Source: Arenibacter certesii DSM 19833 (GTDB taxonomy: Bacteria > Bacteroidota > Bacteroidia > Flavobacteriales > Flavobacteriaceae). From it: a DNA stretch of 64,000 nucleotides. The notes below the pieces were generated by a model, which was not told where the DNA came from, made no database searches, and was given only the letters and a program-made list of their open reading frames with translations. The stretch covers positions 1-64,000 of the forward strand of contig NZ_AUCB01000028.1 in assembly GCF_000429545.1 (NCBI RefSeq). Direction: 5' to 3'. The stretch's first letter is position 1, and each line of letters opens with the position of its first letter. The translations under genes and the position numbers were made by a program. Positions 5,180 to 38,077 of the stretch are shown here, piece by piece.

Positions 5180-5340
5180 CTTTGAAAGACATGTATTAAC
5201 ATGGTCTTATATGGCTTGTAATCAGTTGTTTATTAATGTGTTGTGAATTTATAAAATGTTATGAAACCAAGAAAAAACATCATATGTTGTACCTATGTTG
5301 TACCTAGATTTTGTATATTGAAGAATCGAACGTAGGAATT

Positions 5341-10154: not shown

Positions 10155-10166
10155 AATATTTTCTAT

Positions 10167-13100: not shown

Positions 13101-13334
13101 ATCTGTAACCTTCCCTTTAACAATAATGTCCTGATTGTTCTTTTGTAGGCTAAATTTGGTTTTATTTTCTTTTTCTACCTTAATAGTGTTAAGTGCGTTT
13201 TCTATACTCCTAGAGTAGAGTTTACCACTCGTTGTTAATAAAATGGAGCAGGAAAGTAGAAGAGGGAGGCCTTTTTGTATATCGATTATGATTAGGTGCC
13301 ATAATCCCCTCAAAATGTTATAAGGTTTTTTCAT
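10167..13334 (-). CDS. SusC-type TonB-dependent receptor (pair 1), without STN domain
   Basis: 1,055 residues. A long N-terminus with a hydrophobic signal (GLPLLLSCSILLTTSG) is followed at about residues 72-150 by a carboxypeptidase-D regulatory-like domain (GSPLPGASIVEKGT). Next come the TonB box region (EEVVVVGYGTQ), the plug (IRIRGTGTFSGAGSNPLVII, ISVLKDAASAAIYGARAANG) and a 22-strand barrel ending LSLGVKVKL. Unlike the two other SusC proteins in this window it has no secretin/TonB short N-terminal domain. It therefore cannot signal through FecR and is more likely controlled by another regulator, possibly the neighbouring IclR protein. It imports oligosaccharides through the outer membrane. 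Confidence 0.95.
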   Translation of the reverse strand: MKKPYNILRGLWHLIIIDIQKGLPLLLSCSILLTTSGKLYSRSIENALNTIKVEKENKTKFSLQKNNQDIIVKGKVTDINGSPLPGASIVEKGTSNGTQTDFEGDFSIQVKNVNASLIVSYIGFETQEVPVDGGATISIKLEENAEGLEEVVVVGYGTQKKINLTGAISIIDDEELTKRPVNNVASMLQGKLSGVMINQGSGQPGKEMTSIRIRGTGTFSGAGSNPLVIIDGIAGSLDNIDPENVESISVLKDAASAAIYGARAANGVIVVTTKSGIKGDVIVNYHGNIASHSATILPDLINNSVEYMEMWNSAHTRQGIPNLFTSEQINAYKNASPGDSKFPNFNWLDHSIRSTPVQKHNLSVSGGTEKTNFYANIGYYDQEGIVIGHDFKKYSGQIKIDTKISDNLSFGANASMAIGDRKQPWLADSDFILLIYGSQPMYSPYLADGSGRYSHGGWPDKWVNRNPEFVANEGGDFYDSKNIRASAFLRLNILPELQWEVKGAIDYSDSFNKFVNYPIDSYAFSSNEWYSDGWPVFNGVRDQFERSNQPTLLSTLNYNKEFKNGHNLSILAGYNQESFKWRFLQGARRDFNFPQLRELNAGNSEGQNTTGSASEWAIQSYFGRITYNFKEKYLFEANARYDGTSRIFKENRWGLFPSLSAAWRVSQENFMREYDWVDNLKLRASWGQLGNQNIGNYPYQDVLSSANYPLGASLEQGLRQTRLTDKTLEWETTTSTDIGIDLSLGNGLLSMVFDWYKKDTEGILSTAEIPASVGLSAPTVNFASMQNSGIELLLGHRNKVGELSYSVDINYSKNKNEVTKVKAPSLGRQSTVEGKPINSYYMVEWDGIFQSQAEIDAAPVHPGNPQPGDLRFKDTNLDGVINADDRTFVDGAHPDFTYGGSISLQWKNWDLSVFFQGVEGQKYYLTWWGFWPFTQGTAPTTDWRNAWTPENQSQTMPALWSFSTYGNAAMSGTENTFDLHDASYMRIKNLQIGYNLPQNICEKINMKDIRVYFSGDNLITFSNLKNVDPERSGGNTRGSVYPQTKILSLGVKVKL

Positions 13335-14039: not shown

Positions 14040-14798
14040 TTATTGAAGGCCTAAATTAAAGCGTATGTCTTTAATGGTTGATTTCAATCTGTCCAATATA
14101 TAGTTGGAGTCTATAAGTTCCTGCACTTGTCCAGATAAGATAGTGGCACAAAGTGTTGCGTTAATGTCAAGCTCCGGAATGTAAAGGGGAACCCCAATAT
14201 CCACTACTCCTTTGGTCGATCTACTTTCTCTGATATCATAACCCTTTTTTGAAATACTCTCAAGCAGGGTATTGTATTCTTGTTTTTTCTTATCTGTTAA
14301 ATTGTGGAAGTCTGCAGTCTTGTCGAATATTCTTTGTCTTTCCTCCGGTGAAAGCTGTGAAAGTGATATACTTCCAGAAAATGAGTGTATTATAGGGAAT
14401 TTGCTTCCTACTTGAATGCAAAGCGCTATTGGCTCGGGACTAGGGTTTTGAGCGAGAACAAGCATGTTTTGATTGTCTAAAATTGAAAGGTGGCATGAGT
14501 GTCTCGAAAGCGCAGATAGCTCTTGCATTGGATATATTGCCGCTAACCTGAGTGTTTCAGTTGGTTGAAGACGGCGTGCTAAATGTAATAGCTTCAAGGA
14601 TAATTTGAATTTGGCAGATACTGGATTTTTAACTATGTACCCTCTTTCTTCTAGGCAAACCAGCATTCTATAGATTTCGTTGGGCTTTTTGTTAATTCCT
14701 AAAGCTATCTCAGTTTGTGATTGGGGAGTTGTAATGTTCGAAAGGTATTCAATAATGTCCAAACCTTTATCTAGAGCCGGTGATTGGTATTTCGCCAT
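14040..14798 (-). CDS. IclR-family transcriptional regulator
   Basis: 252 residues. A winged helix-turn-helix at about residues 8-65 (ALDKGLDIIEYLS, QTEIALGINKKPNEIYRML, LEERGYIVKNP) precedes the IclR effector domain, with segments LAAIYPMQELSALSRHSCHLS and STKGVVDIGVPLYI. IclR proteins usually repress catabolic operons until a small acid or sugar metabolite binds. It is transcribed divergently from the RhaT/CoA-transferase operon and lies downstream of the region feeding susCD pair 1, so it is the best candidate regulator for both. Confidence 0.9.
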   Translation of the reverse strand: MAKYQSPALDKGLDIIEYLSNITTPQSQTEIALGINKKPNEIYRMLVCLEERGYIVKNPVSAKFKLSLKLLHLARRLQPTETLRLAAIYPMQELSALSRHSCHLSILDNQNMLVLAQNPSPEPIALCIQVGSKFPIIHSFSGSISLSQLSPEERQRIFDKTADFHNLTDKKKQEYNTLLESISKKGYDIRESRSTKGVVDIGVPLYIPELDINATLCATILSGQVQELIDSNYILDRLKSTIKDIRFNLGLQ

Positions 14799-14953: not shown

Positions 14954-16006
14954 ATGTCAAACCCGTTATTTGGAGTTGTGCTACATGCAGTAGGTGGTGT
15001 GTCTGCCTCTACTTGCTATCTACCCTTTCAGAAAGTAAAAAAATGGTCGTGGAATAGCTACTGGTTAATACAAGCAACATTCGCGTGGTTGGTTTTTCCT
15101 TTGCTAATTGGTTACTTAACAATACCGGATCTATGGCAGGTTTTTGCCGAATCGCCCACTCTCGTTTTACTCAATGCTGTATTGCTCGGCGGTGTCTATG
15201 GTTTTGGGGGAATGGCGTTCGGATATGCTATAGGTTACATTGGTTTTTCATTGGCTTATACCATTTCCATTGGCCTGTCTGCCGTATTGGGTACCATTGT
15301 TCCATTGTTAATCCACGGTACCTTGGAGGAACATTTTTCAAGATCGGGAGGCGGTATTGTGCTGTTCGGAATGATCTTATCCATGGTGGGGTGTTTTTTT
15401 TGTGGATGGGCCGGACGTAAAAAGGAACGGGACCTAAAAGAAAGAATGAATTATGATGCCAGCGCTTTCAATTTAAAATCGGGACTGATGCTGGCTATAT
15501 TTGCCGGAGTGCTATCGGCAATTTTTGGGATTTCGTTGGAAATAGGTGCTCCCGTGACAGAAGTTGCCAGGCAACACGGGGCGGGACAATTTGAGGGCAA
15601 TGCCAATTTATTGCTCTCAACATCAGGTGCTTTTGTTACAAATTTTATTTGGTTTATAATAGTTGGTTTTCGTCAAAAAACTATTAAAGAATTAATAACG
15701 GTGAAGATGTTAGGCAAACGTGTTTGGCTACAGAACCTATTTCTGTCAATCCTCACTGGAGGCCTGTGGTACTTTCAATTCTTCTTTTATGGGATGGGAC
15801 ATGTTGGTATGGGGAATTTCAAATTTGCAAGTTGGGCTATTCATATGTCTATGCTTATCTTTTTTAGCTACATGGTAGGAATAATTATGAAAGAATGGAA
15901 GGAAGTAAACAAGAATACGTATTCCACTCTAATTGTGGGCTTATTGATATTGGTAATCTCCTTTGTTGTGATTTCATACGGAGGGGTTATAGGAAGTGAA
16001 GTTTAA
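14954..16006 (+). CDS. RhaT-family sugar/proton symporter
   Basis: 350 residues with about ten hydrophobic helices and no periplasmic domain, matching the L-rhamnose/proton symporter family (PF06379) in length and layout. Recognisable stretches include GVVLHAVGGVSASTCYLPF, GGVYGFGGMAFGYAIGYIG, GMILSMVGCFFCGWAGRKK and LKSGLMLAIFAGVLSAIFG. It would bring a small deoxysugar or related compound across the inner membrane. The substrate need not be rhamnose: no rhamnose isomerase, kinase or aldolase gene is nearby. It is first in the operon, and its end overlaps or abuts the next gene. Confidence 0.85.
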   Translation: MSNPLFGVVLHAVGGVSASTCYLPFQKVKKWSWNSYWLIQATFAWLVFPLLIGYLTIPDLWQVFAESPTLVLLNAVLLGGVYGFGGMAFGYAIGYIGFSLAYTISIGLSAVLGTIVPLLIHGTLEEHFSRSGGGIVLFGMILSMVGCFFCGWAGRKKERDLKERMNYDASAFNLKSGLMLAIFAGVLSAIFGISLEIGAPVTEVARQHGAGQFEGNANLLLSTSGAFVTNFIWFIIVGFRQKTIKELITVKMLGKRVWLQNLFLSILTGGLWYFQFFFYGMGHVGMGNFKFASWAIHMSMLIFFSYMVGIIMKEWKEVNKNTYSTLIVGLLILVISFVVISYGGVIGSEV

Positions 16007-16019
16007 AATGTGGAGATAT

Positions 16020-17168
16020 ATGCAGAATATTATTACTTTAAAAGGAATAACATGGGACCACAGCAGGGGGTATTGCCCTATGGTGGCAACGGCGCAACGT
16101 TTTTCGGAAACCCGTCCCCATGTCAAGATAGAATGGTCAAAACGCTCACTTCAAGGATTTGCCAATGAACATATCGATACCCTGGCCATGAACTATGATT
16201 TAATTGTCATAGACCATCCATGGGGTGGTTATGCGGCCGATACCGGCATCTTATTAAACTTGGATCAATATATGCCGACTCATTATCTTAAAGATCAAGC
16301 GGCCCATTCGGTGGGCAAATCCTATGAAAGCTATCATTTTGGGGGGCATCAGTTTGCCTTACCTATTGATGCAGCAGCCCCGGTCGCTTCAAGCAGGCCC
16401 GATATATTGGAGCAAATGGGTCTGGACCTTCCTAAATCCTTCAATGATCTTCTACAACTAGCTTCGAAAGGTCTTGTAACAATGCCAGGTATTCCCATAG
16501 ATACCCTGATGAATTTCTATATGTTTTGTTGCGTAATGGGCGAGGAACCCTTTTTGTCTTCAGACTATGTAGTGAGTGAGGCTATTGGTAAAAAGGCATT
16601 GGAAATGTTGAAAGAACTGGCAGATCGTCTTAATCCTGAATTCTTTGACTGGAATCCGATTCGAGTGTACGAAGCAATGACCGTTAGGAACGATTTGGCA
16701 TACTGCCCATGGGCCTATGGATATTCTAATTATTCCAGAAGAGGGTATGCATCAAAAGTTTTGCATTACCATGATTTGATAAAGGACGATAGGGGTGCTG
16801 TATATCGCAGTACTCTGGGAGGGACTGGCTTGGCTATTTCTGCAAATAGTAAAAATAAAGATTTAGCTGTAGAATACGCAATGTTTGTGGCAAACCCAAT
16901 CATTCAAAGTTCACTGTTTTTTGATAACGGTGGTCAACCTGGACATAGAAAAGCCTGGCAGGACGATTTTGTAAATATTCGAAGTGGAGATTTCTTTAAA
17001 TCTACTCTTAAAACTTTGGACTGTGCATTTCTAAGACCAAGATATAATGGTTATATGTATTTTCAAGATAATGCGGGTAGTTTAATTCGTGATTATTTAA
17101 TGAATGGAGGATCAACGGAAGATTTAATTTACAGTCTTAATAAGATTTATTTAGACTCAAAAAAATAA
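16020..17168 (+). CDS. substrate-binding-protein-like protein without signal peptide (1)
   Basis: 383 residues from the ATG at 16020. Upstream in-frame starts at 15996 (GTG, inside the previous gene) and 16008 exist but add residues foreign to the family. The sequence resembles family 1 extracellular sugar-binding proteins of ABC importers (ITLKGITWDHSRGYCP, YDLIVIDHPWGGYA, GGTGLAISANSKNKDLAVEY). It begins directly with the mature fold: no signal peptide, no lipobox, and no permease or ATPase gene is near. If the start is right the protein is cytoplasmic. It may act as a metabolite-binding partner or sensor, or be an enzyme on an SBP scaffold. Confidence 0.8.
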   Translation: MQNIITLKGITWDHSRGYCPMVATAQRFSETRPHVKIEWSKRSLQGFANEHIDTLAMNYDLIVIDHPWGGYAADTGILLNLDQYMPTHYLKDQAAHSVGKSYESYHFGGHQFALPIDAAAPVASSRPDILEQMGLDLPKSFNDLLQLASKGLVTMPGIPIDTLMNFYMFCCVMGEEPFLSSDYVVSEAIGKKALEMLKELADRLNPEFFDWNPIRVYEAMTVRNDLAYCPWAYGYSNYSRRGYASKVLHYHDLIKDDRGAVYRSTLGGTGLAISANSKNKDLAVEYAMFVANPIIQSSLFFDNGGQPGHRKAWQDDFVNIRSGDFFKSTLKTLDCAFLRPRYNGYMYFQDNAGSLIRDYLMNGGSTEDLIYSLNKIYLDSKK

Positions 17169-17171
17169 AAA

Positions 17172-18314
17172 ATGAAGCCATTAAAAGGTATATTGGTTTT
17201 GGAATTCTCTCAATATTTAGCAGGTCCTTCTGCTGGATTGCGATTGGCAGATTTAGGGGCTCGGGTCATTAAAATAGAGCGACCTTTAACTGGAGAAGGA
17301 GGAAGACAGATTGCTATCAAAAACTTGTTCATCGAAAAGGATAGCTTAGTCTTTCACACGATAAATAGAAATAAGGAATCCTTTGCAGCAGACCTTAAGG
17401 ATCCAGAAGATTTAAGCAAAATTAAAAAGCTATTGGCGATAACAGATGTTATGACACATAATTTCAGGCCTGGGGTCATGGAGAGGATTGGCTTGGATTA
17501 TAAATCCGTTAGCACTATTAATCCTAAATTGGTATACGGGGTAGTTACTGGTTATGGGAATGAAGGTCCTTGGGCTGCCAAGGCTGGTCAAGATTTATTG
17601 GTTCAGGCCCTTTCAGGCCTCACCTATTTGTCTGGAAATGATAACGATGGACCGGTACCAATGGGTCTGGCTGCAACAGATATTTTGACTGGGGCTCACT
17701 TTTGCCAAGGTATTTTGGCAGCTTTAGTGCGCAGGGGAAATACACAAAAAGGGGGGTTGGTAGAAGTTAGTCTTTTGGAATCGACCCTCGATTTTCAGTT
17801 CGAGGTTCTTACGACCCATTTCAATGATGGAGGGAAGCTACCATGTAGGGCTAAAGAAGGTAGTGCTCATGCCTATTTGGGGGCTCCTTATGGTGTGTAC
17901 ACCACAAAAGACAATTATATTTCTATAGCTATGGTGCCTTTGCCAATTCTGGCTTCCTTTTTGAATGTTGAGCTGCCCGACAAATATCAATCTGAGGAAA
18001 ATTGGTTCGAGTATCGTGACGAGATTAAGGCAATATTGCAAAAAGTTCTGCTCACCAAGTCCACAGCGGAATGGTTGGAGATCTTGGAGGCTGGGGATGT
18101 GTGGTGTTCAGCGGTATTTGACTACAAGGAATTTTTGGAGCATGACGGTTATAAGATATTGAAAATGGATCAGGAAATAATCACCTCAAAAGGTGAAAAA
18201 ATACGAACAACTTGTTGCCCTATCCGCGTGGACAATAAGCGCTATTATAGTTATAAATCAGCTCCTTTAGTAGGAGAGGATACTAATAAAATTATTAAAG
18301 AGTTTAATTTATAA
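17172..18314 (+). CDS. CaiB/BaiF family III CoA-transferase (1)
   Basis: 380 residues. Family III signatures: [73 protein letters not shown] and GLAATDILTGAHFCQGILAA. By comparison with formyl-CoA transferase, D170 in ATDILTG is the aspartate that carries the acyl group. It would move CoA between a donor thioester and a carboxylic acid. It lies 3 bp after the SBP-like gene and is strongly similar along its length to the CoA-transferase at 21190. The acid substrate cannot be read from sequence. Confidence 0.9.
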   Translation: MKPLKGILVLEFSQYLAGPSAGLRLADLGARVIKIERPLTGEGGRQIAIKNLFIEKDSLVFHTINRNKESFAADLKDPEDLSKIKKLLAITDVMTHNFRPGVMERIGLDYKSVSTINPKLVYGVVTGYGNEGPWAAKAGQDLLVQALSGLTYLSGNDNDGPVPMGLAATDILTGAHFCQGILAALVRRGNTQKGGLVEVSLLESTLDFQFEVLTTHFNDGGKLPCRAKEGSAHAYLGAPYGVYTTKDNYISIAMVPLPILASFLNVELPDKYQSEENWFEYRDEIKAILQKVLLTKSTAEWLEILEAGDVWCSAVFDYKEFLEHDGYKILKMDQEIITSKGEKIRTTCCPIRVDNKRYYSYKSAPLVGEDTNKIIKEFNL

Positions 18315-18366
18315 ATTGAATTAGGATATGAGTAATTGTAAAAACAGAAAAAAAATAAGGAATTTT

Positions 18367-20667
18367 ATGCATTATTTGTATAGTCTAGTTCTGTTAGTAT
18401 TGTTTAATGCGTGTATTCAGAACCATTTATCTAATAATACTAATCCGGTTGGAGAGTATAATGTGGTATGGGAATCACCCAGCAACGACCATAACGGATC
18501 CATGCCCATAGGAAATGGTGACATTGGATTAAACGTCTGGGTTGAACAGAGTGGCGATCTATGTTTTTACATCGGTAAGACTGATTCTTGGGGAGATAAT
18601 GGTCGTTTGCTAAAAGTTGGAAAGGTAAGGGTACAAACTGAACCAGCCCTTGTGTTTTCTGATATTGAATTCAAGCAGGAACTAGATCTTAATGATGGAA
18701 CAATTAGAATAAACGTCAAGGGGGATATGGATAATAAGCCTGTAGATATTAATCTTAATGTCTGGGTTGACGCTAATAATCCAGTTATCCATATAGATCA
18801 AAAAAGCACTATTCCTCTTGCTATGAAAGCAACTATTGAAAGATGGCGCACCAAAAAAGATACTCTTCCCGAAATAGGTGTGAGCGACCTCATGGAAAAT
18901 CGAGATATGCCTGGAAATCTGGCTAAACCTGTGATTGTTGAGCCAGATAATTTAATTCAAGGAACAAAGGATTATATTGGCTGGTATCATCATAACCAAA
19001 AGTCTGAAGGTTTCGATTTAACAAATAAACTTCAAGGTCTATCTGAATATTTTGAAGAAGATCCTATTCTGCATCGGACTTTTGGAGGAACAATTAAGAG
19101 TGTTAATGCTACTAAAATTAATGACTCTACTCTTGTTACTCCAGCATTGAAGGAGGGCAGTTTAAGCGTGCACGTTCTAACCTCGCATCCCTCTACTCCT
19201 GAAAAGTGGACGATTGCTATGGAGAAGTTAATGGCCAACACAGAGAGCATTTCGCTTGAAAAGCATTATGAAAATCATAAGAAATGGTGGAATTCCTTTT
19301 GGGATAGAAGTTGGATAAAGGCTTCACCTTCGGATAGCACAGAATTGTTAAAATCAGATAATGATGCTTTCCTGGTTTCTAGAGCATATAACTTACAGCG
19401 ATTTATAGATGCTTCTGCAGGTAGGGGGAACTTTCCTATAAAATTCAATGGCTCCCTATTTACAGTTCCCTCTGAGGGTATGCCTGGCGGACCAGACTAC
19501 CGGAGGTGGGGTCCAGGGTACTGGTGGCAAAACACTCGTTTGCCCTATCTAAGTATGACAGCTTCTGGTGATTTTGATTTGATGAAACCTCTTTTTAAAA
19601 TGTATGTCGATGAGCTACTGGAACTCTCTAAGTATAGAACTGAGAAATACTTTGGATTTGAAGGAGCTTACATGCCGGAATGTATGTATTTCTGGGGTTC
19701 GGTTTTTACCGCGGACTATGGCTGGACACCTTATGAAGAGCGAATAGATCCACTACAGGAGAGTGGTTGGCACAAATGGGAATGGGTTTCAGGACCTGAG
19801 CTCGTTTTCATGATGTTAGATTACTATGATTATACTGAAGATAAAGAGTTTCTTCAGAATAAAATTATTCCAACAGCTAATGAAATAATAAAATTTTTTA
19901 ATAATTACTATGAAACAAATGATAATGGGAAATTGGTTATGTATCCCTCAATGGCAGCAGAAACCTGGTGGGATTGCACCAATCCTATGCCTGAACTATC
20001 TGGTCTACATGGTATTACTAAAAGATTAATGGCTTTGCCAGAGGGTGCGGCCCTCGAGGTAGACAGAAAATTTTGGAAAGAAATTAATGGGAAACTGGCA
20101 GATATTCCACTTAGGAACACTCCATCGGGTAAAGCATTAGCGCCAGCTGAACGTTTTGAAGATAAACGTAACGTAGAAAACCCAGAATTATATGCCGTAT
20201 TTCCCTTTAGATTATATGGTATTGGGAATCCCAATTTAGATTATGGATTAAATGCATTGAAGCACAGGTGGGATAAGGGGGCCTTTGGCTGGAGACAAGA
20301 TGATATATTTATGGCGTACCTAGGTTTATCAGAACAGGCTAAAGAAAATATAGTTGAAAGAACCAAAAATTACGACAAAAATTCTCGTTTCCCTGCATTT
20401 TGGGGACCTAATTACGATTGGACTCCTGATCAGGACCACGGCGGCGTATTGATGAAAACTTTTCAGTCGATGTTAATGCAGGTTGATCCATACTCTTCAA
20501 AAATATACCTACTACCAGCATGGCCAATAGATTGGAATGCCGAATTTAAGTTGCACGCTCCACAGAATACAGTCATTGAAGGTCGCGTTGTAAACGGGGA
20601 AATAAAAGGGTTAAAGGTAACCCCCGCCTCTCGAAAAGACGATATTGTTTTAATACCTAATGACTAA
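18367..20667 (+). CDS. DUF5703-type glycosidase-like lipoprotein (1)
   Basis: 766 residues from the ATG at 18367, which gives a compact lipoprotein signal ([12 protein letters not shown]); an ATG at 18328 would add 13 charged residues before it. The N-terminus carries a beta-sandwich-like domain with [16 protein letters not shown]. The centre looks like an (alpha/alpha)6 barrel ([44 protein letters not shown]), ending [19 protein letters not shown] and a C-terminal beta domain ([14 protein letters not shown]). This architecture resembles GH95/GH65-type glycosidases, and the family is known as DUF5703. It shares the motifs of the protein at 35629. Its place inside an intracellular-metabolism operon ties that pathway to glycan breakdown. 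Confidence 0.75.
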
Positions 20668-20678
20668 AAATCAAAACT

Positions 20679-21221
20679 ATGCCAGAAAATACACCTTTAG
20701 AGGAACACAAAAACATCAAGCTTTTCAATACAGAGGATTGGTTGTACGAAGATTTTGAAATAGGACTTAAAGCTAGATCTATAAGCAGAACCATTTCTGA
20801 GGGAGAAGCCATGATGTTCAATGGTCTGGTGATGGATATGCACCCTTATGTTGCCGATGAAACCTTTGCCAGGGAAGAAGGGATGTTCGGAAAAAGATTG
20901 GTCGCAGGGGCTATGGTCTTTAGCCTTGGACTGGGATTAATGGCCCATAACAACATACATACCTTTAGCTATGGATACGATAAACTAAGGTTTATAAAGC
21001 CCGTATTTATCGGCGACACGATTTATACGGTCCGTACACATTTGACCAAGTTCCCAAAATTTCAAAAGATGGGGCTCGTTACGGTAAGCTATGAAGTGTA
21101 TAAACATCCCGGGGAATTGGTGTTATATTGCGAACATTTGCAGACGGTAAAGTATAGGAGCCAAAAAAAAATTATAAAAAAAATAGTTTATGAAACCACT
21201 GGATGGCATTTTGGTCGTTGA
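20679..21221 (+). CDS. MaoC-like hotdog-fold dehydratase (1), degenerate active site
   Basis: 180 residues. Hotdog-fold MaoC features: [40 protein letters not shown] and [19 protein letters not shown]. In MaoC hydratases the active site reads Asp-x-x-Pro-x-His before a second Asp. Here the aligned segment is [13 protein letters not shown], which keeps D53 and D60 but has V58 where His is expected. It may be a non-catalytic partner of the MaoC protein at 24689, which keeps both residues. Its 3' end overlaps the next gene's start by 32 bp, implying coupled translation. Confidence 0.8.
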
Positions 21222-22332
21222 TTTGAGTCAGTTCTTGTCCGGTCCCTCGGCAAGCTTAAAGCTGGCCGATTTGGGAGCACGGGTCATTAAGATAGAAAGG
21301 CCGGTAATAGGGGATATTTGCCGTTCTTTATACGTTTCCAATGTGAGTATAAACGGTGAATCCACTGTTTTTCATGCAATAAACCGAAATAAGGAAAGTT
21401 TTGCTGCCGATCTGAAAAATGAAATAGATAAAACTCGTGTACTACGGTTAATAGAAAAAGCTGATATAGTAATTCATAATTTTAGACCAGGTGTTATTAA
21501 TCGTTTAGGGCTAGATTATGAAAGGGTTAAAAAGGTGAATTCGACCATTCTTTATGGGGAAATATCTGGTTATGGAAAAGAGGGGCCTTGGAAGGATAAG
21601 CCTGGGCAGGATTTGTTGGTACAATCTTTATCTGGGGTTACATGGTTGAGCGGTAACAAAAACGACGGGCCAGTCCCAATGGGATTGGCTATTGTAGATA
21701 TTTTGACCGGTGCACATTTGGTACAGGGACTCCTAGCTGCTTTAATACGAAAAGGTGTTGACGGGAAAGGGGCGAAAATTGAGGTTAGCATGATGGAATC
21801 TGTTGTTGACCTTCAATTTGAAACCATAACCACTTATTTTATGGATGGAGGACAGCCAACCGAACGCACGGAAAGTAATAATGCGCATGCCTATCTCGGA
21901 GCACCTTACGGAATATACAAAACGGGAAACGGTCATTTGGCATTGGCCATGGGACAGATACCTGTTTTGGGCGAGCTGCTGGGCTGTAAAAAATTATTGA
22001 AATACAAGAAAACAGCTTCTTGGTTTGATCAAAGAGATGAAATAAAAGATGTCTTATCAAAACATTTGATCCAAGAAACTACGCAAAAATGGATGTCGGT
22101 GCTGGAACCGGCAGATATTTGGTGTGCCGATGTAATGGATTGGGAGACATTGTTTCAAAGCGAAGGTTATAAAATATTGAATATGGAACAGGAAGTTCAG
22201 ATGACCGATGGGTTTCGTTTTAAAACTACGCGCTGTCCCATCCGTATTGATGGACAACTATTGGTGTCTGATAAAGGTACTCCAATTTTAGGAGAGCACA
22301 CAGAAAAGATTGCAAAAGAATTTATGTTATAA
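21190..22332 (+). CDS. CaiB/BaiF family III CoA-transferase (2)
   Basis: 380 residues, the same length as the transferase at 17172 and collinear with it. Motifs: [65 protein letters not shown] and [16 protein letters not shown] with catalytic D170. Family III transferases form interlocked dimers, and some (for example the SmtAB pair of Chloroflexus) are heteromers of two paralogues, so these two may assemble together. The start was chosen at [15 protein letters not shown], which aligns with its paralogue. Confidence 0.9.
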
Positions 22333-22340
22333 TTATTAAT

Positions 22341-23576
22341 ATGTCAAATACATTTAGAGTTGCTGTTAGAAAATTTGGTCCTTTTGAAAGCACAATAGAG
22401 AAAATATGGAAAGGTTTCTGTAAGGAATCAGGGTGTTCTATGAAACTTGAGGCTCTTCCAATGGATCTAAGTGACTTGTATGAAGCTACTTTGGGTAAAG
22501 GAGACGGATTGAATAAAGGAGATTGGGACGTTACCAATATTAATACAGATTGGATTATGGAAGCCGATCAGAAGAATTGCCTCGAAGATTTAACTCCATG
22601 GATAAGCTCCAATCCGCCCGATGATTATCCTGAAGGCTGGTCCGATTCTTTGCTGTCTATGCAAAGATTTAATCAGCGAATATTAGGTTTGCCCTTTCAT
22701 GATGGGCCTGAATGTCTCATTTATAGAAGGGATTTATTTAATGACCCAAAGGAGAAGGAGGCGTTTAACATGAAGTATAAACGAGAGCTACTTCCACCTG
22801 CAACATGGAAGGAATTTCACGAAGTGGCGCGTTTCTTCAACAGGCCCACACAAAACCTATACGGTACCGCCTTCGCCCTGTATCCTGATGGACACAACAC
22901 GGTTTTTGATTTTAGTCTTCAATTGTGGACAAGAGGAGGTGAATTGGTTAACGGGGATGAGCAAATAAATATAAATACTCCCGAAGCCGAAGATGGGCTT
23001 AAATTTTATCGAGAAATTGTTCGAGATGAGTTGGCAATGCATCCTGGTTCTGTCAATTTTGATTCCGTGCAATTGGGTAGTGCCTTTGCCAATGGTGAGA
23101 TTTCAATGATGGTCAATTGGTTCGGATTTGCCTCGATATGCGAGGTGCATCATGAATCCAAGGTAAAGGGATGTGTCGATATTACAAATATTCCGGCAGG
23201 TCGTTCAGGAAAGGGGTTTTCTCTAAATGTCTATTGGTTGTATGCTATAGGAAAAGGAAGCAAATATAAAAAAATAGCTTATGATTTTATCCGCTATGCG
23301 GTCAACGCAAATAATGATAAACTTCTAACCTTGGAAGGAGGAATCGGTTGTAGAAAATCTACATGGGTTGATCGGGAAATAAATGAGAAAATATCCTATT
23401 ACCATAAACTCGGATTGCTCCATGAAAATGCACGGACCTTGCCCCAAAAATCCAACTGGAATGAAATTTCAGAGGTTTTGGACCAAATGGTGATAAGCCT
23501 GCTTTCAACTGATAGAACCGAAAAAGAGTTATTGAAGGAAGCACAAAAGGAAATTGACCAATTAAAGAGAAAATAA
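22341..23576 (+). CDS. substrate-binding-protein-like protein without signal peptide (2)
   Basis: 411 residues with family 1 solute-binding-protein character: DWDVTNINTDWIMEADQKNC, LEDLTPWISSNPPDDYPEG, LPFHDGPECLIYRRDLFND, and FANGEISMMVNWFGFASICE. It starts MSNTFRVAVRKFGPFESTIE with no hydrophobic signal, and no ABC permease or ATPase is encoded anywhere in the window. It is more diverged from the protein at 16020 than the two CoA-transferases are from each other. The stop overlaps the next start (TAATG). Confidence 0.8.
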   Translation: MSNTFRVAVRKFGPFESTIEKIWKGFCKESGCSMKLEALPMDLSDLYEATLGKGDGLNKGDWDVTNINTDWIMEADQKNCLEDLTPWISSNPPDDYPEGWSDSLLSMQRFNQRILGLPFHDGPECLIYRRDLFNDPKEKEAFNMKYKRELLPPATWKEFHEVARFFNRPTQNLYGTAFALYPDGHNTVFDFSLQLWTRGGELVNGDEQININTPEAEDGLKFYREIVRDELAMHPGSVNFDSVQLGSAFANGEISMMVNWFGFASICEVHHESKVKGCVDITNIPAGRSGKGFSLNVYWLYAIGKGSKYKKIAYDFIRYAVNANNDKLLTLEGGIGCRKSTWVDREINEKISYYHKLGLLHENARTLPQKSNWNEISEVLDQMVISLLSTDRTEKELLKEAQKEIDQLKRK

Positions 23577-24631
23577 TGAATATCTCATCAAGATCAATAT
23601 TGCCCGAAACGGAAATTCCCATAGTCATAATAGGCGCTGGTGGCATTGTAAAAGATGCCCATTTGCCAGCTTATGCCAAGGCAGGCTTTAAGGTTCTAGG
23701 TATATATGACATTGAGAAAAAAAATGCGGAGCTCCTTGCCCGAAAGTTTGAAGTGCCACAAATATGTGATACCATTGAGGAGCTTATCGAATTAGGCATC
23801 AAGAACAAAGCCGTTTTTGATGTAGCCGTACCCGCTGCAGAGATAATACCTATTCTTTCGGTACTTCCCGATAATGCAGCGGTACTCATTCAGAAGCCCA
23901 TGGGGGAAAATTTAATGGAGGCAGAAAAAATCTTATCCCTTTGTAGGCAAAAGGAGTTGGTGGCAGCCATTAACTTTCAATTGCGATATGCACCCTTCGT
24001 AAATGCGGCACGAACTATAATTGATTCAGGTGCCATTGGCGATGTTTATGATATGGAAGTAAAACTTTGCGCGTTTACGCCATGGCACCTTTGGGATTTC
24101 TTAACTAAGACACCCAGAGTTGAAATATTATATCACAGCATCCATTATATCGATTTAGTCCGTTCAATTTTGGGAGACCCTGACCGAGTTATGGCAAAAA
24201 CGGTAAGGCATCCAACAACTACAGTGGCCCAAACAAAGAGTACAGTTATTATGGACTATGGTGATACAATTAGCGCAACAATCATAACGAACCATGATCA
24301 TGATTTTGGTCCAAGACACCAACAAAGTTACATCAAATGGGAAGGAACAAAGGGAGTTATATATGCGAGAATGGGTTTGCTCTTGGACTATCCTAACGGG
24401 GTTTCTGATGAATTTGAATATGGGATAAAAGATGTCAATGGAAATACCGAATGGAAAACGGTGGATTTGAAAGGTTCTTGGTTTCCGGATGCCTTTATAG
24501 GAACAATGGGATCTTTAATGCGGTTTATGGAAGGTTCCGAAATGGAATTACCTACATCCGTGGAAGATGCTATTAAGACCATGGAAGCGGTTGAAAACGC
24601 ATACATGTCTAGTAATGGCAATTTAAGATGA
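23576..24631 (+). CDS. Gfo/Idh/MocA-family NAD(P)-dependent oxidoreductase
   Basis: 351 residues. Rossmann domain with VIIGAGGIVKDAHLPAYAKA and an acidic segment after beta2 (YDIEKKNAELLARKF) favouring NAD. The usual EKP motif reads IQKPMGENL here, keeping the lysine. The C-terminal domain has VNFQ-like AINFQLRYAP and HSIHYIDLVRSILG, which carries the family Asp. The family oxidises or reduces sugars and cyclitols. In this operon it would generate a keto sugar or lactone feeding the CoA-thioester steps, though that link is inferred. One-base overlap with the preceding gene. Confidence 0.88.
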   Translation: MNISSRSILPETEIPIVIIGAGGIVKDAHLPAYAKAGFKVLGIYDIEKKNAELLARKFEVPQICDTIEELIELGIKNKAVFDVAVPAAEIIPILSVLPDNAAVLIQKPMGENLMEAEKILSLCRQKELVAAINFQLRYAPFVNAARTIIDSGAIGDVYDMEVKLCAFTPWHLWDFLTKTPRVEILYHSIHYIDLVRSILGDPDRVMAKTVRHPTTTVAQTKSTVIMDYGDTISATIITNHDHDFGPRHQQSYIKWEGTKGVIYARMGLLLDYPNGVSDEFEYGIKDVNGNTEWKTVDLKGSWFPDAFIGTMGSLMRFMEGSEMELPTSVEDAIKTMEAVENAYMSSNGNLR

Positions 24632-24688
24632 ATATAAAAATTGCATTGAGATTTAAATTTACCATAAACAATTAAACAATAATGAACT

Positions 24689-25147
24689 ATGCAGATTAAA
24701 TCCGAATTCTTTGAGGAATACGTCTTAGGTGATTCAAGGGAAACTCTTGGAAGAACAATTACTGAAACAGATTTTATAATTCATGCAGGTCAGACTGGAG
24801 ATTTTTTTCCACACCATATGGACGCCGAGTGGTGCAAGACCCAACCTTTTAAACAACGCATTGCACACGGAACCTTGACATTTAGTGTTGCCATCGGAAT
24901 GACAGCTACCCAAATTAATCCAGAAGCATTTTCAAAAGGATATGATCGTCTTCGGTTTATAAAACCAGTTTATATAGGTGATACTATTTATGTAAAAGTG
25001 GCGATATCACATAAAGAAGATACTAAAAAACCGCATTATGGTCAGGTCACTGAGCATGTAGAAGTACTCAATCAACGTGATGAAGTTGTATTGGTTTGCG
25101 ACCATATTTTATTAGCAAAGAAAAAAGAAATCAAGACAAACAAATAG
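24689..25147 (+). CDS. MaoC-like hotdog-fold dehydratase (2), canonical active site
   Basis: 152 residues, compact single hotdog. The catalytic segment [14 protein letters not shown] has D38 and H43 in the spacing of R-specific enoyl-CoA hydratases. [16 protein letters not shown] and [17 protein letters not shown] complete the fold and closely parallel the protein at 20679. It would hydrate or dehydrate an acyl-CoA made by the CoA-transferases. It lies 57 bp after the oxidoreductase gene and is followed directly by the GH95 gene. Confidence 0.85.
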
Positions 25148-25155
25148 TTATACAG

Positions 25156-27564
25156 ATGGATTTTATTTTTAAAAAGTATACTTCTTTTTTTAAGAATTTA
25201 GCAGTAGGATTTCTTATTTTATTTTTTTGGCTTATTTATTCATGCTCTAATACCACTATAAACGAACCTAAGAATAACCAATCCATTTGGTTTGAGAATC
25301 CTGCAAATAATTGGAATGAAGCTATTCCTATTGGTAATGGTACTTTAGGAGGAATGGTCTATGGAGGTATTGAATCAGATACCATCAAAATTAATGAAGA
25401 AACCCTTTGGTCTGGTGGTCCACGAGATCTTCAAAATCTTACAGCGATAAATTATCTTCCTCGTATTAGGAAATTGTTACTTGAACACAAGACAAAAGAA
25501 GCAGAAGCATTGATTGACTCCACCATGCTGGGTGAATATAATGAATGTTACCTGCCTATGGGCGACCTTATAATAAGTCAAATTAGCGAAGGTAAAGCAA
25601 CGAATTATAAACGCCAACTTGATCTTAACAAAGGAATTGTTGATGTTACCTATAATCTGGATAATGTAATCTATAAAAAGGAAGTATTTGCATCATTCCC
25701 AGACAAAGCGATTATTGTAAAAATGAGTGCTGATAAATCTGGACAACTTAATTTCTCAACATCATTAACAAGTTTATTAAAACACTCGGTTGAAATTAAG
25801 GATAATAGAATTATTTTAAGTGGTAACGCTCCAAAGCACGCTTATCCACACTACCTTGGTAAAAAGGATGCATTATATGAGGAAGGATACGGAATGCGTT
25901 TTAATATGGTTCTTCATATAAGAAATAAAGGAGGAAACGTGACAACTGAAAAAGATAAGTTAATTGTCCAAAATGCAGATGAAGTAGAACTTTTATTTAC
26001 TGCTACAACCAGCTTTAATGGTTACGATAAAGATCCTGTAAAAGATGGAAAAGACTATGAACAAATTGCTAAAAACACTGTTGAATCGCTATCGAAAACA
26101 GACTATTCTAAATTAAAAAGCCGCCACCTTAAAGATTACAAAGGGTTGTATGACAGAGTGAGTATAGATTTAGGAAAGTCTTCCAAAGATTCGATTCCTA
26201 CGGATGAAAGAATAAAGTCGTTCAGTCCAGGAACCGACCCTAGTCTAACCGCTTTATATTATCAGTTTGGTCGCTATCTACTAATTTCTAGTTCACGCCC
26301 AGGAGAATTTGCCCAACCCGCAAATTTACAGGGGATTTGGAGTCGATTATTACAACCTGCATGGAGTGCTAACTGGACATTGAATTGTAATGCCCAAATT
26401 AATTATTGGCCAGTAGAAACCGCCAACCTGTCTGAGTTACATTTACCGCTTGTGGAACTCACAAAAGAACTTTCGGTAGATGGAGCAAAAACTGCCAGAA
26501 ATATGTACGAAGCAAATGGATGGATTGCGCATCATAATGCTGATATTTGGAGAACAACCTCTCCCGTTGGAGGATCGGGATTGTGGGCCATTTATCAAGT
26601 GGGGAGTGCTTGGTTATGCCATCATCTTTGGGAACATTATGAATTTACTCAAGATAAGGAATACTTGAAAGAAGTGTATCCTATTATGAAAGGCGCAGCA
26701 CAATTTTATTTGGATAATTTACAAAGGGATGAAGATGGTTTTTTGGTAACAAACCCTTCGGAATCTTTTGAAAATTATTTTGTAAAACCAGATGGTGAAA
26801 AAGGATGGGCATGCGTAGGTGCAACACAAGATATGCAGATTATTAGGGATCTATTTCAGAATTGCAAACTAGCAATTTCTGAATTAGATACAGATAAGGA
26901 ATTTGGTGTGAAATTGGACGCGTATCTAAGCCAGTTATTGCCCATGCGTATTAGCCCTAGCACAGGAAGACTCCAGGAATGGAAAGACGACTGGAAGGCC
27001 GCAACGCCATTTGCCGGGCAGGTAGCACATGGCTGGGGCTTGGCGGTCGGCAATCAAATCTCCCCTCGTACAACTCCTGAATTGGCTGAAGCCTTTACCA
27101 AAACCCTTGAATACCGAAAGCCTTGGGAAGCCAATAATAGCGGAAGTTGGACAGGAAGCTTCTCGGCAAAGTTCTGGGCCAGGTTGGGTAATGAGGAAAT
27201 GCTGCAAAAGGTACTTGACGAACATTTTGAAAAAGCGCTGTTTCCTAACCTTACTTCCAATTTTGGAGGGTTTTGGGAAATCGACGGAAATTTAGGTATT
27301 ACCGCTTCCATTGGTGAAATGCTGTTGCAAAGCCATGATGGAGAAATAGAGGTTTTGCCGGCACTACCTTCTTTTTATCCCAACGGTAAAGTAGAAGGGC
27401 TTAAGGCCAGGGGTGGGTTTACGGTGGATATGGAATGGAGCGGAGGTATTTTAAAACAGGTCCGCGTTCACTCTCAGTCAGGGGAAAAGGCAGTTTTAAG
27501 ATATGGAGAACAACTACGTGAAATTAATATTGATAAGGATAGGGATGTCAATTTTTATTTTTAA
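25156..27564 (+). CDS. GH95-family glycosidase (alpha-L-fucosidase or alpha-L-galactosidase type)
   Basis: 802 residues from the ATG at 25156, which starts a lipoprotein signal ending WLIYSC; the longer frame from 25096 overlaps the MaoC gene. N-terminal beta domain: IPIGNGTLGGMVYGGIESD and NEETLWSGGPRD. The (alpha/alpha)6 domain carries LNCNAQINYWPVETANL with N410 and N412, matching the Asn pair of bifidobacterial GH95. PSESFENYF (E536/E539) holds the likely general acid, and EIDGNLG (D710) the likely base. It is an inverting exo-enzyme on alpha-L-fucosyl-type caps. The last roughly 600 bp look clearly more GC-rich than the rest, suggesting a mosaic gene. Confidence 0.88.
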   Translation: MDFIFKKYTSFFKNLAVGFLILFFWLIYSCSNTTINEPKNNQSIWFENPANNWNEAIPIGNGTLGGMVYGGIESDTIKINEETLWSGGPRDLQNLTAINYLPRIRKLLLEHKTKEAEALIDSTMLGEYNECYLPMGDLIISQISEGKATNYKRQLDLNKGIVDVTYNLDNVIYKKEVFASFPDKAIIVKMSADKSGQLNFSTSLTSLLKHSVEIKDNRIILSGNAPKHAYPHYLGKKDALYEEGYGMRFNMVLHIRNKGGNVTTEKDKLIVQNADEVELLFTATTSFNGYDKDPVKDGKDYEQIAKNTVESLSKTDYSKLKSRHLKDYKGLYDRVSIDLGKSSKDSIPTDERIKSFSPGTDPSLTALYYQFGRYLLISSSRPGEFAQPANLQGIWSRLLQPAWSANWTLNCNAQINYWPVETANLSELHLPLVELTKELSVDGAKTARNMYEANGWIAHHNADIWRTTSPVGGSGLWAIYQVGSAWLCHHLWEHYEFTQDKEYLKEVYPIMKGAAQFYLDNLQRDEDGFLVTNPSESFENYFVKPDGEKGWACVGATQDMQIIRDLFQNCKLAISELDTDKEFGVKLDAYLSQLLPMRISPSTGRLQEWKDDWKAATPFAGQVAHGWGLAVGNQISPRTTPELAEAFTKTLEYRKPWEANNSGSWTGSFSAKFWARLGNEEMLQKVLDEHFEKALFPNLTSNFGGFWEIDGNLGITASIGEMLLQSHDGEIEVLPALPSFYPNGKVEGLKARGGFTVDMEWSGGILKQVRVHSQSGEKAVLRYGEQLREINIDKDRDVNFYF

Positions 27565-28438: not shown

Positions 28439-29035
28439 CTAAATCTTTTGCTTCAAGTCTATTCCAAAAAGTAATAGGAAGACCCCATTGATTTTAGGGT
28501 CCAGGGTCTTGCGTAAAATGGAAAATGCTTTTGTAATATGACCTTCAACAGTTTTTGTGGAAATATTTAAATGCTCCGCAATTTCAATATTCGTAAGACC
28601 TTCCTGCTTGCTTAATATAAACGACTGTTTGCATTTAGGTGGAAGATTCTCAATTTCAATTTTCACCTGAGAAATTAATCTTTCCATGGAATTTCCCGAA
28701 TCTTCCTGTACAAATACGACCAAGGTGTCAATATGTAGTTTTTCCAAGGAAAAAACAGGCCTATTCCTTCTGTAATAATCAATAAACCCGTTGTACACCG
28801 ATTTGTACAAATAATTCTTGAGGTCAACATCCTCCTTTAACTTTTTGCGCTTTTTCCAAATTTTAATAAAAACGTTTTGAACGATATCCTCAGATAAATC
28901 ACTATCGCCTATAAGTCCGAAAGCATAAGTACATAGCCTTTGGTGGTAGGTCTCTACCAAATGGGTATACGCTTGTGAGTCCCCATTTTTCAACCCTGTA
29001 ATAAAGGTAATCTCGTTAATATAATCAATTTTCAT
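28439..29035 (-). CDS. ECF-type RNA polymerase sigma factor (1)
   Basis: 198 residues from the ATG at 29035 (MKIDYINEITFITGLKNGD); the longer frame from 29074 adds 13 residues unlike the family. Region 2 is at about residues 25-90 (LVETYHQRLCTYAFGLIGD, DIVQNVFIKIWKKRKKL). Region 4 has LPPKCKQSFILSKQEGLTNIEIAEHLNISTKT-type residues, and the C-terminus ends in a hydrophobic tail typical of Bacteroidota glycan-responsive sigmas. Its anti-sigma FecR gene is divergent rather than downstream, which is uncommon. It should activate the adjacent susC2. Confidence 0.9.
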   Translation of the reverse strand: MKIDYINEITFITGLKNGDSQAYTHLVETYHQRLCTYAFGLIGDSDLSEDIVQNVFIKIWKKRKKLKEDVDLKNYLYKSVYNGFIDYYRRNRPVFSLEKLHIDTLVVFVQEDSGNSMERLISQVKIEIENLPPKCKQSFILSKQEGLTNIEIAEHLNISTKTVEGHITKAFSILRKTLDPKINGVFLLLFGIDLKQKI

Positions 29036-29148
29036 AATGAGAAATTTACAGTAATTGTGACGAATATTTGACAAATAATAAAAATAATTAACACAAAAGC
29101 AAGGGTTGTGTGAAATTATTGCGTTTTAAATATGGAATTGAATGTATG

Positions 29149-30327
29149 ATGTCTAAAAAAATTCAAAATATAATCACGAAATACTTCACCAAACAAGCGT
29201 CCCTTTCTGAGCTGGACTTGCTTTCACAGTGGATTGAGAATCCTTCTAATAAGGAGGAGTTTATTAAATATGTTAAAATCAATTTTGCAATCAATGTTAA
29301 CATGAAAAAGTTTGGTACGGAGGATTCCAAAAAACAGCTATTAAAATTCATTGAACTGGAAAAGAAGGGCCGTATCAAGCGAATAACCCTTAACTACGTT
29401 AAATATGCTGCAGTAGTCTTAGTGTTTTTAGGTACTGGATATATTCTAAAAAATCGAATCCTGGATAATCCATCTGGTGTAATAAATGAGAAAACAGAGA
29501 CACCAGTAACAATTAACAATATAATTGAAGTTGGAACGGACAAGGCTATTCTAACTTTAGAAGACGGATCAAATATAGATTTGGAAAAAGGAAAAACAAT
29601 ACGCACAAAAAGCGTACAAAGCAATGGTGAAGAATTGATATACGATTCTTCCCATTCAGAAAATGCCGAAATAGCCTATAATTTTTTGACAATTCCTAGA
29701 GGAGGTCAATTTCATATAAAACTGTCAGATGGAACTTTGGTGTGGCTTAATTCGGAAAGTCGTTTGAAGTATCCCGTGGCCTTCAAAGAAGGGGAAACAA
29801 GAGAAGTAGAGCTGGTCTATGGTGAAGCATATTTTGAGGTATCCCCAAGTACATTACATGATGGGGCAACTTTTAAGGTTTTGAACACATCCCAAGTTAT
29901 AGAAGTGCTGGGAACAGAGTTTAATCTAAAAGCATATAGAGACGAAACCAATGTTTATACTACATTGGTCAAAGGTAAAGTTGTAATAAATACCCCTACC
30001 ACAAAGAAAGTACTTGCGCCAAACCAACAGTCTACTTTGGACATAAACGATAATAGTATTATCGTTAAACCTGCAAATGTCAATGATGAAATTTCTTGGA
30101 AAAAGGGTCTCTTTAGTTTTAAGAGTAAGTCCCTAGAGGAGATAGCTAAGGTGCTTTCGCGATGGTATGATGTTGACATATTATTTTCAAGTCCTGAACT
30201 TAAAACTGTGAAATTTAATGGTGTATTAAGGAAGGACGAAAGTATTGAGGAAATATTAAACAATATTTTAACCACTAATTATATTAAAGCCTTTGAGATA
30301 AAAGACAAAAGAATTATGCTTAAATAA
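29149..30327 (+). CDS. FecR-type anti-sigma factor (1)
   Basis: 392 residues from the ATG at 29149 (SKKIQNIITKYFTKQAS); in-frame starts also exist at 29110 and 29146. A cytoplasmic sigma-binding helix region is followed by one membrane span (YAAVVLVFLGTGYIL). The periplasmic FecR domain includes LTIPRGGQFHIKLSDGTLVW and GEAYFEV. The C-terminal DUF4974-type domain (LFSFKSKSLEEIAKVLSRWY) docks with the STN domain of SusC2. It transmits the signal of bound glycan from the outer membrane to the sigma factor. Confidence 0.92.
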   Translation: MSKKIQNIITKYFTKQASLSELDLLSQWIENPSNKEEFIKYVKINFAINVNMKKFGTEDSKKQLLKFIELEKKGRIKRITLNYVKYAAVVLVFLGTGYILKNRILDNPSGVINEKTETPVTINNIIEVGTDKAILTLEDGSNIDLEKGKTIRTKSVQSNGEELIYDSSHSENAEIAYNFLTIPRGGQFHIKLSDGTLVWLNSESRLKYPVAFKEGETREVELVYGEAYFEVSPSTLHDGATFKVLNTSQVIEVLGTEFNLKAYRDETNVYTTLVKGKVVINTPTTKKVLAPNQQSTLDINDNSIIVKPANVNDEISWKKGLFSFKSKSLEEIAKVLSRWYDVDILFSSPELKTVKFNGVLRKDESIEEILNNILTTNYIKAFEIKDKRIMLK

Positions 30328-30329
30328 AG

Positions 30330-30379
30330 AAAGGGAATAAAGTTATACCTGGACAGTACTGTGCTTTAATCCCCTTTTT
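30330..30379 (+). terminator. hairpin between fecR1 and susC2
   Basis: Arms 30330-30342 (AAAGGGAATAAAG) and 30364-30377 pair imperfectly, and the right arm ends in a T-run. It separates regulator from receptor transcription and may act as an attenuator or terminator. Confidence 0.6.
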
Positions 30380-30423
30380 GAATCAATTGATTAATAATGT
30401 TTAACCAACCAAAATTCAAATTT

Positions 30424-33675: not shown

Positions 33676-33705
33676 TCTACTATAAAACATTAAAAATTTT
33701 AAAAC

Positions 33706-35310: not shown

Positions 35311-35365
35311 TAATACTATTTTTCAAGCCAAAAATTGTTAGGTGAGTAAGTTAGTTGGTTGAAAA

Positions 35366-35396
35366 ACATACCCTGTAGTTTTGCAGGGTGTGTTTT
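35366..35396 (+). terminator. rho-independent terminator after susD2
   Basis: ACAtACCCTG pairs with CAGGGTgTGT around an 8-nt loop, and TTTT follows. It lies 56 bp past the SusD stop. Confidence 0.7.
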
Positions 35397-35628
35397 AATT
35401 ACATATGCCTTAGCATATTCGAAAATATTCCAGATCAGGTTAAGAATCATAGTCACAATTGGATGCCCTTGCATAGTACCTAGCAGGTAGACCAGCCAAG
35501 TAGGTTATATAGAATAACCAAAACCCATTATTTTGATTTATCGCGCATAAAAATATTTTAAAAAAATAGTTTTTGTAGACACATCATATTTGTAATGCCA
35601 ATGGGCATTTAACATAAATATTTATAGT
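35397..35628. promoter_or_regulatory. upstream region of the degradation operon with AT palindrome
   Basis: Non-coding. The perfect 12-bp palindrome ATAAATATTTAT at 35614-35625 lies 3 bp before the start codon at 35629. The same palindrome occurs upstream of susC1 (13692-13703). I could not place a convincing TAnnTTTG promoter. Confidence 0.4.
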
Positions 35629-38052: not shown

Positions 38053-38077
38053 GCAAAACATAAAAAACAAACCTATA

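Follow-up and report, generated by a model that had tools for sequence, protein, structure and literature searches.

In the 4.99 Mb genome of Arenibacter certesii DSM 19833 we identified a probable operon of ten genes that combines two family III CoA-transferases and two MaoC-type proteins with two signal-less proteins of the solute-binding-protein (SBP) fold. The operon lies on contig NZ_AUCB01000028.1 at positions 14,954–27,564 of the window, the 64,000-nucleotide stretch of DNA that was analysed. From its gene content, and from a comparison of related loci, we tentatively propose, with somewhat less than even confidence, that these genes encode a CoA-cycled hydro-lyase for a sugar acid, namely a 6-deoxyaldonate derived from L-fucose or L-rhamnose. 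A list of open reading frames (ORFs) and a Pfam and NCBIfam profile search confirmed the ten ORFs at the coordinates and in the families (RhaT, Gfo/Idh/MocA, SBP-like, CoA-transferase, MaoC, DUF5703 and GH95) given in a preliminary description of this DNA. It had also stated that they form one operon, which we would now call likely, as neighbouring genes on the one strand are never more than 57 bp apart and some overlap (gaps of −32 to +57 bp, with inferred starts) beside a divergent IclR-family regulator. The regulator, which it had named as well, is present outside the range described (14040..14798, reverse strand; Pfam IclR_C/HTH_IclR).

A gene-neighbourhood search, suggested in the preliminary description as a check, revealed the same grouping in several phyla. 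Searching genome contigs with SBP-A, the first of the two SBP-fold proteins, gave at least 571 stretches; the best 80, which were kept, come from Bacteroidota, Balneolota, Pseudomonadota (for example Neiella, Gilvimarinus and Hirschia), Paenibacillus and Chloroflexota. Relatives of SBP-A were also found on 147 plasmid records, with loci in Rufibacter, Persicobacter, Croceibacterium, Martelella and Sinorhizobium, and a plasmid of the archaeon Halostagnicola carries relatives of other module parts and no SBP-A. Counted by genome, SBP-A is present in 12 of 198 among relatives (the window's own counted), and a sample drawn across the phylum had it in 19 of its 392 genomes. We classified 110 SBP-A loci by the same-strand genes lying up to 9 kb away. 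These loci are not a random sample: eight were fetched for an FAH gene, 15 were picked manually among earlier hits, one gene is included twice (L100 and L247) and so is one gene or species (L019 and L104). Of the 110 loci, 103 have a CoA-transferase, which in 98 lies within 300 bp of SBP-A. Two CoA-transferases occur in 88 loci and a fused pair in five. The architecture of the window, with SBP-B and Gfo, accounts for 66 loci (63 with MaoC, three without), and lactonase, Gfo and MaoC occur together in seven. A crotonase stands with an aldehyde dehydrogenase in 19 loci and alone in four; the remainder have SBP-B alone (one), MaoC alone (one) or none of these partners (12). In one locus (L236:6708-8531) the crotonase is fused to a seven-bladed beta-propeller lactonase, beside a CoA-transferase and a divergent SBP-A; this locus also has a UxuA-like dehydratase.

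The two CoA-transferases, CoAT-A (17172..18314) and CoAT-B (21190..22332), match CoA_transf_3 over the whole profile (E 3.1e-92 and 2e-92, respectively) and are 53% identical to each other. No further family III CoA-transferase was found in the genome. A tree built from 148 unfused copies places every one of the 72 second copies of paired loci in one clade (support 0.994), along with a lone first copy (L043) and three unpaired copies; by this tree the two proteins are ancient paralogues from two old groups. The catalytic aspartate, at the position that we take to be that of Asp169 in FRC (residue 170 in CoAT-A), is conserved in all 144 copies of paired loci, 72 first and 72 second. In five Hymenobacter loci CoAT-A and CoAT-B are fused into a single ORF of 792–818 residues, which suggests that the two probably form one heteromeric enzyme. 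Their transfer activity is a prediction; they score below every NCBIfam equivalog cut-off listed.

MaoC-A (20679..21221; Pfam MaoC_dehydratas) and MaoC-B (24689..25147; Pfam, nearest solved sequence 4ffu, E 6.8e-57) are 35% identical. Within GD-x-N-P-x-H, which we take to be the MaoC/hydratase-2 motif with its Asp/His dyad, the Asp is present in 50 of 50 rows and the His at +5 in 48 of 50. Both exceptions are MaoC-A rows, those of the window and L043, where Val replaces the His, leaving a hot-dog protein without its catalytic His; MaoC-B keeps the dyad in 48 of 48 rows. The preliminary description had read these genes as two copies of a module. A simple local duplication was ruled out: the CoA-transferases are old paralogues, the MaoC proteins have diverged to the extent just given, and the two SBPs show no significant BLASTP similarity (E 0.16) and belong to different families.

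SBP-A (16020..17168) and SBP-B (22341..23576) both match Pfam SBP_bac_1; the start of SBP-A is inferred, the ORF list giving a GTG at 15996. Their AF2 models (pLDDT 94.5 and 93.8) have the fold of ABC importer SBPs. For SBP-A the best VIA Z was 38.4 (367 residues, 2.5 Å), to MalE3 (6dtq) and SmoF (7ofy), and for SBP-B 44.8 to 1eu8 (393 residues, 2.2 Å); these structure searches served for fold placement only. Although both share the fold of SmoF, MalE3 and other sugar-binding proteins of ABC transporters, neither has a signal peptide. None of 83 SBP-A and none of 58 SBP-B sequences exceeded the hydrophobicity threshold for a secretory N-terminus, which four of five controls did; the control below it, an S. 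meliloti SBP, perhaps has a misplaced start. We also found no ABC permease or ATPase gene among the ORFs of the window operon; some relatives, for example Croceibacterium, have ABC genes near. Because both the signal peptide and the ABC permease are missing, a role as parts of an ABC importer was ruled out for this operon, and the annotation ‘sugar ABC transporter substrate-binding protein’ is probably mistaken in operons of this kind. Among the ORFs of the 87 loci collected first, none fuses an SBP to a CoA-transferase, a long ORF in L020 being a frame artefact.

One weak idea is that SBP-B might open a lactone. Of the 73 loci bearing Gfo, 66 have SBP-B and the other seven an amidohydrolase lactonase on the same strand; no locus has both. 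This alternation amounts to only one to three independent contrasts, however, and several further observations weaken the idea. In 13 of the 66 SBP-B loci an amidohydrolase lactonase lies on the opposite strand, one has a same-strand beta-propeller lactonase about 9 kb away, and Halostagnicola has SBP-B together with an annotated amidohydrolase. In addition, where SBP-B is missing (L181 and L187, below), its absence goes with that of the CoA genes and not with that of the lactonase.

The same core of SBP-A and CoA-transferase stands beside MaoC in one architecture and beside a crotonase in the other. As these hydratases are unrelated, the most likely common chemistry is hydration or dehydration of an acyl-CoA that the CoA-transferase would make. 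We propose the following substrate and order of steps. A 6-deoxy sugar of the L-fucose or L-rhamnose type would be freed by the GH95-like enzymes and enter through the RhaT symporter, and the Gfo/Idh/MocA dehydrogenase (23576..24631; Pfam) would oxidise C1 to give a lactone that opens to the aldonate. The QKP and H-x-x-H-x-x-D motifs of this dehydrogenase are kept in 56 of 56 rows. A heteromer of CoAT-A and CoAT-B would then load CoA onto the aldonate, with SBP-A, and here also SBP-B, acting as cytosolic partners that bind the sugar acid; the CoA donor would ideally be the product of the preceding round. A CoA thioester would acidify the C2-H of the aldonate, a job done by metal ions in enolase-type dehydratases. 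MaoC-B, possibly with the degenerate MaoC-A as its partner, would take off the beta-hydroxyl to give the enol of a 2-keto-3-deoxyacyl-CoA, and we favour this dehydration over other hydratase-type reactions. The CoA would be handed on, an SDR would oxidise C4, and an FAH-family hydrolase would cleave the product to pyruvate and lactate. The sequence of import, oxidation, CoA activation and hydration or dehydration in the preliminary description is, as a proposal, consistent with the seven lactonase, Gfo and MaoC loci, the L236 fusion and the linkage to diketo-acid genes described below.

Precedents exist for parts of this scheme. Family III CoA-transferases and MaoC-type hydratases operate together in the CoA pathways of itaconate and mesaconate (Ich/RipB, mesaconyl-CoA hydratase), to which the module proteins show weak NCBIfam and Pfam similarity; they nevertheless score far below the equivalog cut-offs. 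CaiB is likewise a family III CoA-transferase, and we know of no SBP-fold proteins in the CaiB/CaiD system. In carnitine metabolism a CoA-transferase swaps CoA between betaines and a hydratase works on the thioester, so that E. coli CaiB and CaiD combine the same two activities as are predicted here (PMC3680233). The module likewise pairs an acyl-CoA hydratase and family III CoA-transferases, and its gene content suggests a similar exchange of CoA between dehydrated product and substrate; the CaiB/CaiD substrate is a betaine, whereas ours would be a sugar acid. A sugar acid carried as a CoA thioester also appears in a proposed CoA-bound branch of 2-deoxyribonate catabolism in Klebsiella michiganensis, which uses a CoA-synthetase, a beta-hydroxyacyl-CoA dehydrogenase and a thiolase, with no MaoC or SBP named in the available portion of that report (PMC6365646).

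The link to L-fucose and L-rhamnose comes from the neighbours of the module in some lineages. To our knowledge the non-phosphorylative pathway for these sugars (FucD- or UxaA-type dehydratase, SDR, FAH) has no CoA step. Its mutarotase, lactonase, dehydrogenase, SDR and FAH genes accompany the module in some lineages, and the module occupies the place where a dehydratase gene stands elsewhere. In a probable Flavobacterium group, which includes genus g145, and in one other genus the module adjoins genes for a 2-keto-3-deoxy-L-fuconate (KDF)-type dehydrogenase and/or a 2,4-diketo-acid hydrolase; in other genomes the dehydratase beside these genes is of the enolase or altronate type. The module is divergent from lactonase, dehydrogenase and FAH genes in three loci of Flavobacterium or Flavobacteriaceae (L099, L102, L103), and the same arrangement is found in g145 (L173, L178, L180, L182, L184–L186), which is probably Flavobacterium because its SBP-A sequences group with those of L094, L099 and L103. 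The KDF-dehydrogenase-type SDR is usual in these loci and was not found in L178, L182 and L184. Locus L203, from another genus, has MaoC-B, SBP-A, CoAT-A, CoAT-B, lactonase, RhaT, Gfo, MaoC-A, SDR and FAH in one run, with no SBP-B. Weaker cases are a Hirschia locus (L057), whose FAH has 48% identity and whose SDR is some 5 kb distant, and a locus from the window's genus (L237), where FAH and SDR are about 5–6 kb from an SBP-A of 38% identity. Genomes of the Pedobacter and Hymenobacter types have their FAH operon (mutarotase, lactonase, SDR) at a separate place from the module. L-fucose and L-rhamnose would yield the same 2,4-diketo-3-deoxy acid, and the SDR and FAH genes therefore cannot separate one sugar from the other.

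A natural gap is seen in two g145 loci, L181 (genome G478) and L187 (G647). Both match L185 in the succession of permease, Gfo/Idh, SDR, FAH, Zn-alcohol dehydrogenase, second SDR and lactonase, and lack SBP-A, CoAT-A, CoAT-B and SBP-B on one side of Gfo and MaoC on the other. SBP-A is absent genome-wide in both; the other four genes were compared at the locus only. As they are missing jointly, these five genes look like one functional set with Gfo/Idh outside it.

We also compared whole genomes, treating the 392-genome sample as one draw across the FAH, FucD and SBP-A searches, as the shared genome handles suggest. FAH was found in 74 genomes (E ≤ 1e-100), FucD in 20 (at least 63% identity) and SBP-A in 19. 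FAH occurs in 16 of the 19 genomes with SBP-A against 58 of the 373 without (Fisher p 4e-10); by genus, which partly controls for relatedness, the figures are 8 of 10 against 33 of 169 (p 1.3e-4). Next to FAH itself, in 60 loci from 57 of the 74 FAH genomes, we observed the module in eight, a UxaA type in 21 (plus one at 27% identity) and FucD in one, and no two of them together in any locus. FucD is under-counted here, as the 17 omitted genomes include 15 of the 17 with both FucD and FAH. Five genomes (G300, G308, G443, G485, G493) have both a UxaA-type FAH operon and the module, which in the last three adjoins a second FAH gene; in such genomes it is probably part of a parallel route, which might take a different stereoisomer.

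Several observations weigh against a fucose or rhamnose hydro-lyase. None of FucD, UxaA and the module is present in 29 of the 60 FAH loci (some at contig ends), so an empty dehydratase slot is common. FAH lies in the flanks of only four of the 80 loci not picked for it, and seven of the eight module–FAH loci belong to one genus. FucD occurs in 2 of 16 genomes with SBP-A and FAH against 17 of all 74 FAH genomes, roughly the same frequency; FucD and SBP-A are not mutually exclusive by genome, and this does not support the module as a strict replacement for FucD. Among 79 SBP-A-bearing genomes (the 80th, L098, was left out) FucD is present at 70–87% identity in four and as a relative at 43–44% in eight, with weaker partial matches only in five and no match at 1e-30 in 62; FAH matches at 1e-60 in 61 of the 79. 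FucD relatives in three related genomes (G579, G607 and G624, family f66) have one in-frame TAG each, which may reflect recoding, pseudogenes or an alignment that runs past the gene end. L-rhamnose isomerases exist in families besides PF06134, which was found in 3 of 80 genomes and so does not serve as a discriminator.

The Arenibacter genome itself has another route. The preliminary description had found the standard deoxysugar routes absent, which holds for the operon, where no enolase-superfamily fuconate dehydratase was found, but not for the genome. Contig C5 carries an enolase-superfamily fuconate-dehydratase-type gene, an SDR and a 2,4-diketo-3-deoxy-acid-hydrolase-type gene in a fucoidan-type locus (28554-38218; L109, L118), near what we presume, from their sequences, to be GH95-, GH29- and sulfatase-like genes. 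The module is therefore not the only route in this genome. The FAH protein of this genome reaches 347 bits with the model for 2,4-didehydro-3-deoxy-L-rhamnonate hydrolase, short of the cut-off of 500.

Ordinary dehydratases, moreover, relatives of FucD, MR/MLE, UxuA or UxaA, co-occur with the module in several lineages. In S. meliloti and Martelella FucD lies in the same region as MaoC and Gfo, with the CoA-transferase and SBP-A 10–25 kb away; L203 has, further down, an enolase-superfamily gene with an SDR and an AraD1-like gene; and the divergent SBP-A loci L235–L238 and L245 carry UxuA-like dehydratases. Such neighbours would suit another CoA-level route, in which a sterically unsuited (stereochemically awkward) aldonate is hydrated or epimerised at C3, or the acid is cleaved by a retro-aldol reaction, and ordinary dehydratases act elsewhere. 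Genes resembling OiaK (3-oxo-isoapionate kinase) and the RuBisCO-like OiaX follow the module in Mucilaginibacter and Arcticibacter (L036, L054, L060, L063, L070) and lie near it in Paenibacillus (L091) and Croceibacterium (L023), three lineages in all, joined in five Bacteroidota loci by an Asp/Glu-racemase-like gene. Those tested score below the equivalog cut-offs; they are a possible second downstream route and would suggest a 3-oxo-acid product. The proposed CoA-bound branch for 2-deoxyribonate is also in favour of a CoA-level route (PMC6365646). On the other hand, the SDR and FAH pair beside some loci expects a 2-keto-3-deoxy acid, and just 1 of the 66 loci with the window's architecture has an MR/MLE, UxaA or UxuA relative, the types looked for (IlvD/Edd was not), in its flanks. 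We regard such a route as unlikely, though a serious competitor.

The substrate may also differ, L-fucose, L-rhamnose and rarer sugars being alternatives. If it were a branched, O-methylated or carboxylated sugar acid, for example from rhamnogalacturonan-II, proximity to fucose and rhamnose genes would reflect a shared polysaccharide. The GH78-, GH106-, GH2- and GH29-type enzymes that recur near the module, the three lineages with genes of apionate-type kinase and RuBisCO-like type and the separate FucD route on C5 would fit this. RhaT- and FucP-type permeases, together with lactonases and an FAH that come nearest, both below cut-off, to the L-fucono-lactonase and 2,4-didehydro-3-deoxy-L-rhamnonate hydrolase models, are, however, usual 6-deoxyhexose genes; a rarer acid seems distinctly improbable. 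A role of the SBP-like proteins in sensing or storage, unconnected to CoA chemistry, is very unlikely. In its favour, seven of the 110 SBP-A loci (L075, L089, L100, L235, L237, L245, L247), which count against our proposal too, lack a same-strand CoA-transferase within 9 kb. In one of them, L100 of Fodinibius (the same gene as L247), the neighbours of SBP-A are a xylose-isomerase-like gene, an FGGY kinase and a class II aldolase/SDR fusion, resembling the isomerase, kinase and aldolase of L-rhamnose. Against such a role, SBP-A is within 300 bp of a CoA-transferase in 98 of the 110 loci, and both SBPs are missing along with the CoA-transferases and MaoC in L181 and L187.

All of the protein families involved are known; their combination, with cytosolic SBP-fold partners, looks undescribed. 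The known sugar-acid dehydratases are of the enolase, UxaA, UxuA and IlvD/Edd types, and a CoA-cycled hydro-lyase, if true, would add a CoA-dependent class and point to a way in which Bacteroidota of soil and sea that lack FucD may complete the breakdown of L-fucose or L-rhamnose. It would also mean that solute-binding-protein folds act as cytosolic partners of metabolic enzymes. The more complete version, in which sugar acids are dehydrated as CoA thioesters by a heteromeric CoA-transferase with MaoC or crotonase and the two SBP folds are enzyme subunits that present the acid in the cytosol, is doubtful. The preliminary description knew of no Bacteroidota pathway with this composition, in agreement with the open-licence full-text literature, where we found no description of the gene set; nor do the available parts of PMC9007349, PMC11378808, PMC6365646 and PMC3680233 describe it.

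The remaining genes of the operon would, judging by their families, serve uptake and glycan breakdown. The RhaT-type sugar-proton symporter (14954..16006; Pfam RhaT, E 1.8e-55) opens it; among 87 loci the permease is RhaT in 10 and FucP-type in 44, and the IclR cluster is present in 45. Two proteins have a secretory N-terminus, a DUF5703_N and GH95-catalytic-like glycosidase (18328..20667; Pfam, N-terminal hydrophobicity) and a GH95 glycosidase (25156..27564; Glyco_hydro_95_cat, E 1.6e-140), the latter presumably of the alpha-L-fucosidase/galactosidase type, its start being inferred (the ORF list gives a TTG at 25096). All of these lie on the forward strand, as do the module genes. Just past the IclR gene, on the opposite strand, a SusD and TonB-dependent receptor pair (8679-13334) is possibly part of the same uptake system. 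A second glycan locus follows at 28439-48561, with a sigma factor, a TonB-dependent receptor/SusD pair, DUF5703, GH116, GH2, GH88, a heparinase II/III-like lyase and a sulfatase. Upstream of the operon lies a tyrosine recombinase of the phage-integrase family (5311-6549), which may be relevant to the patchy distribution of the module.

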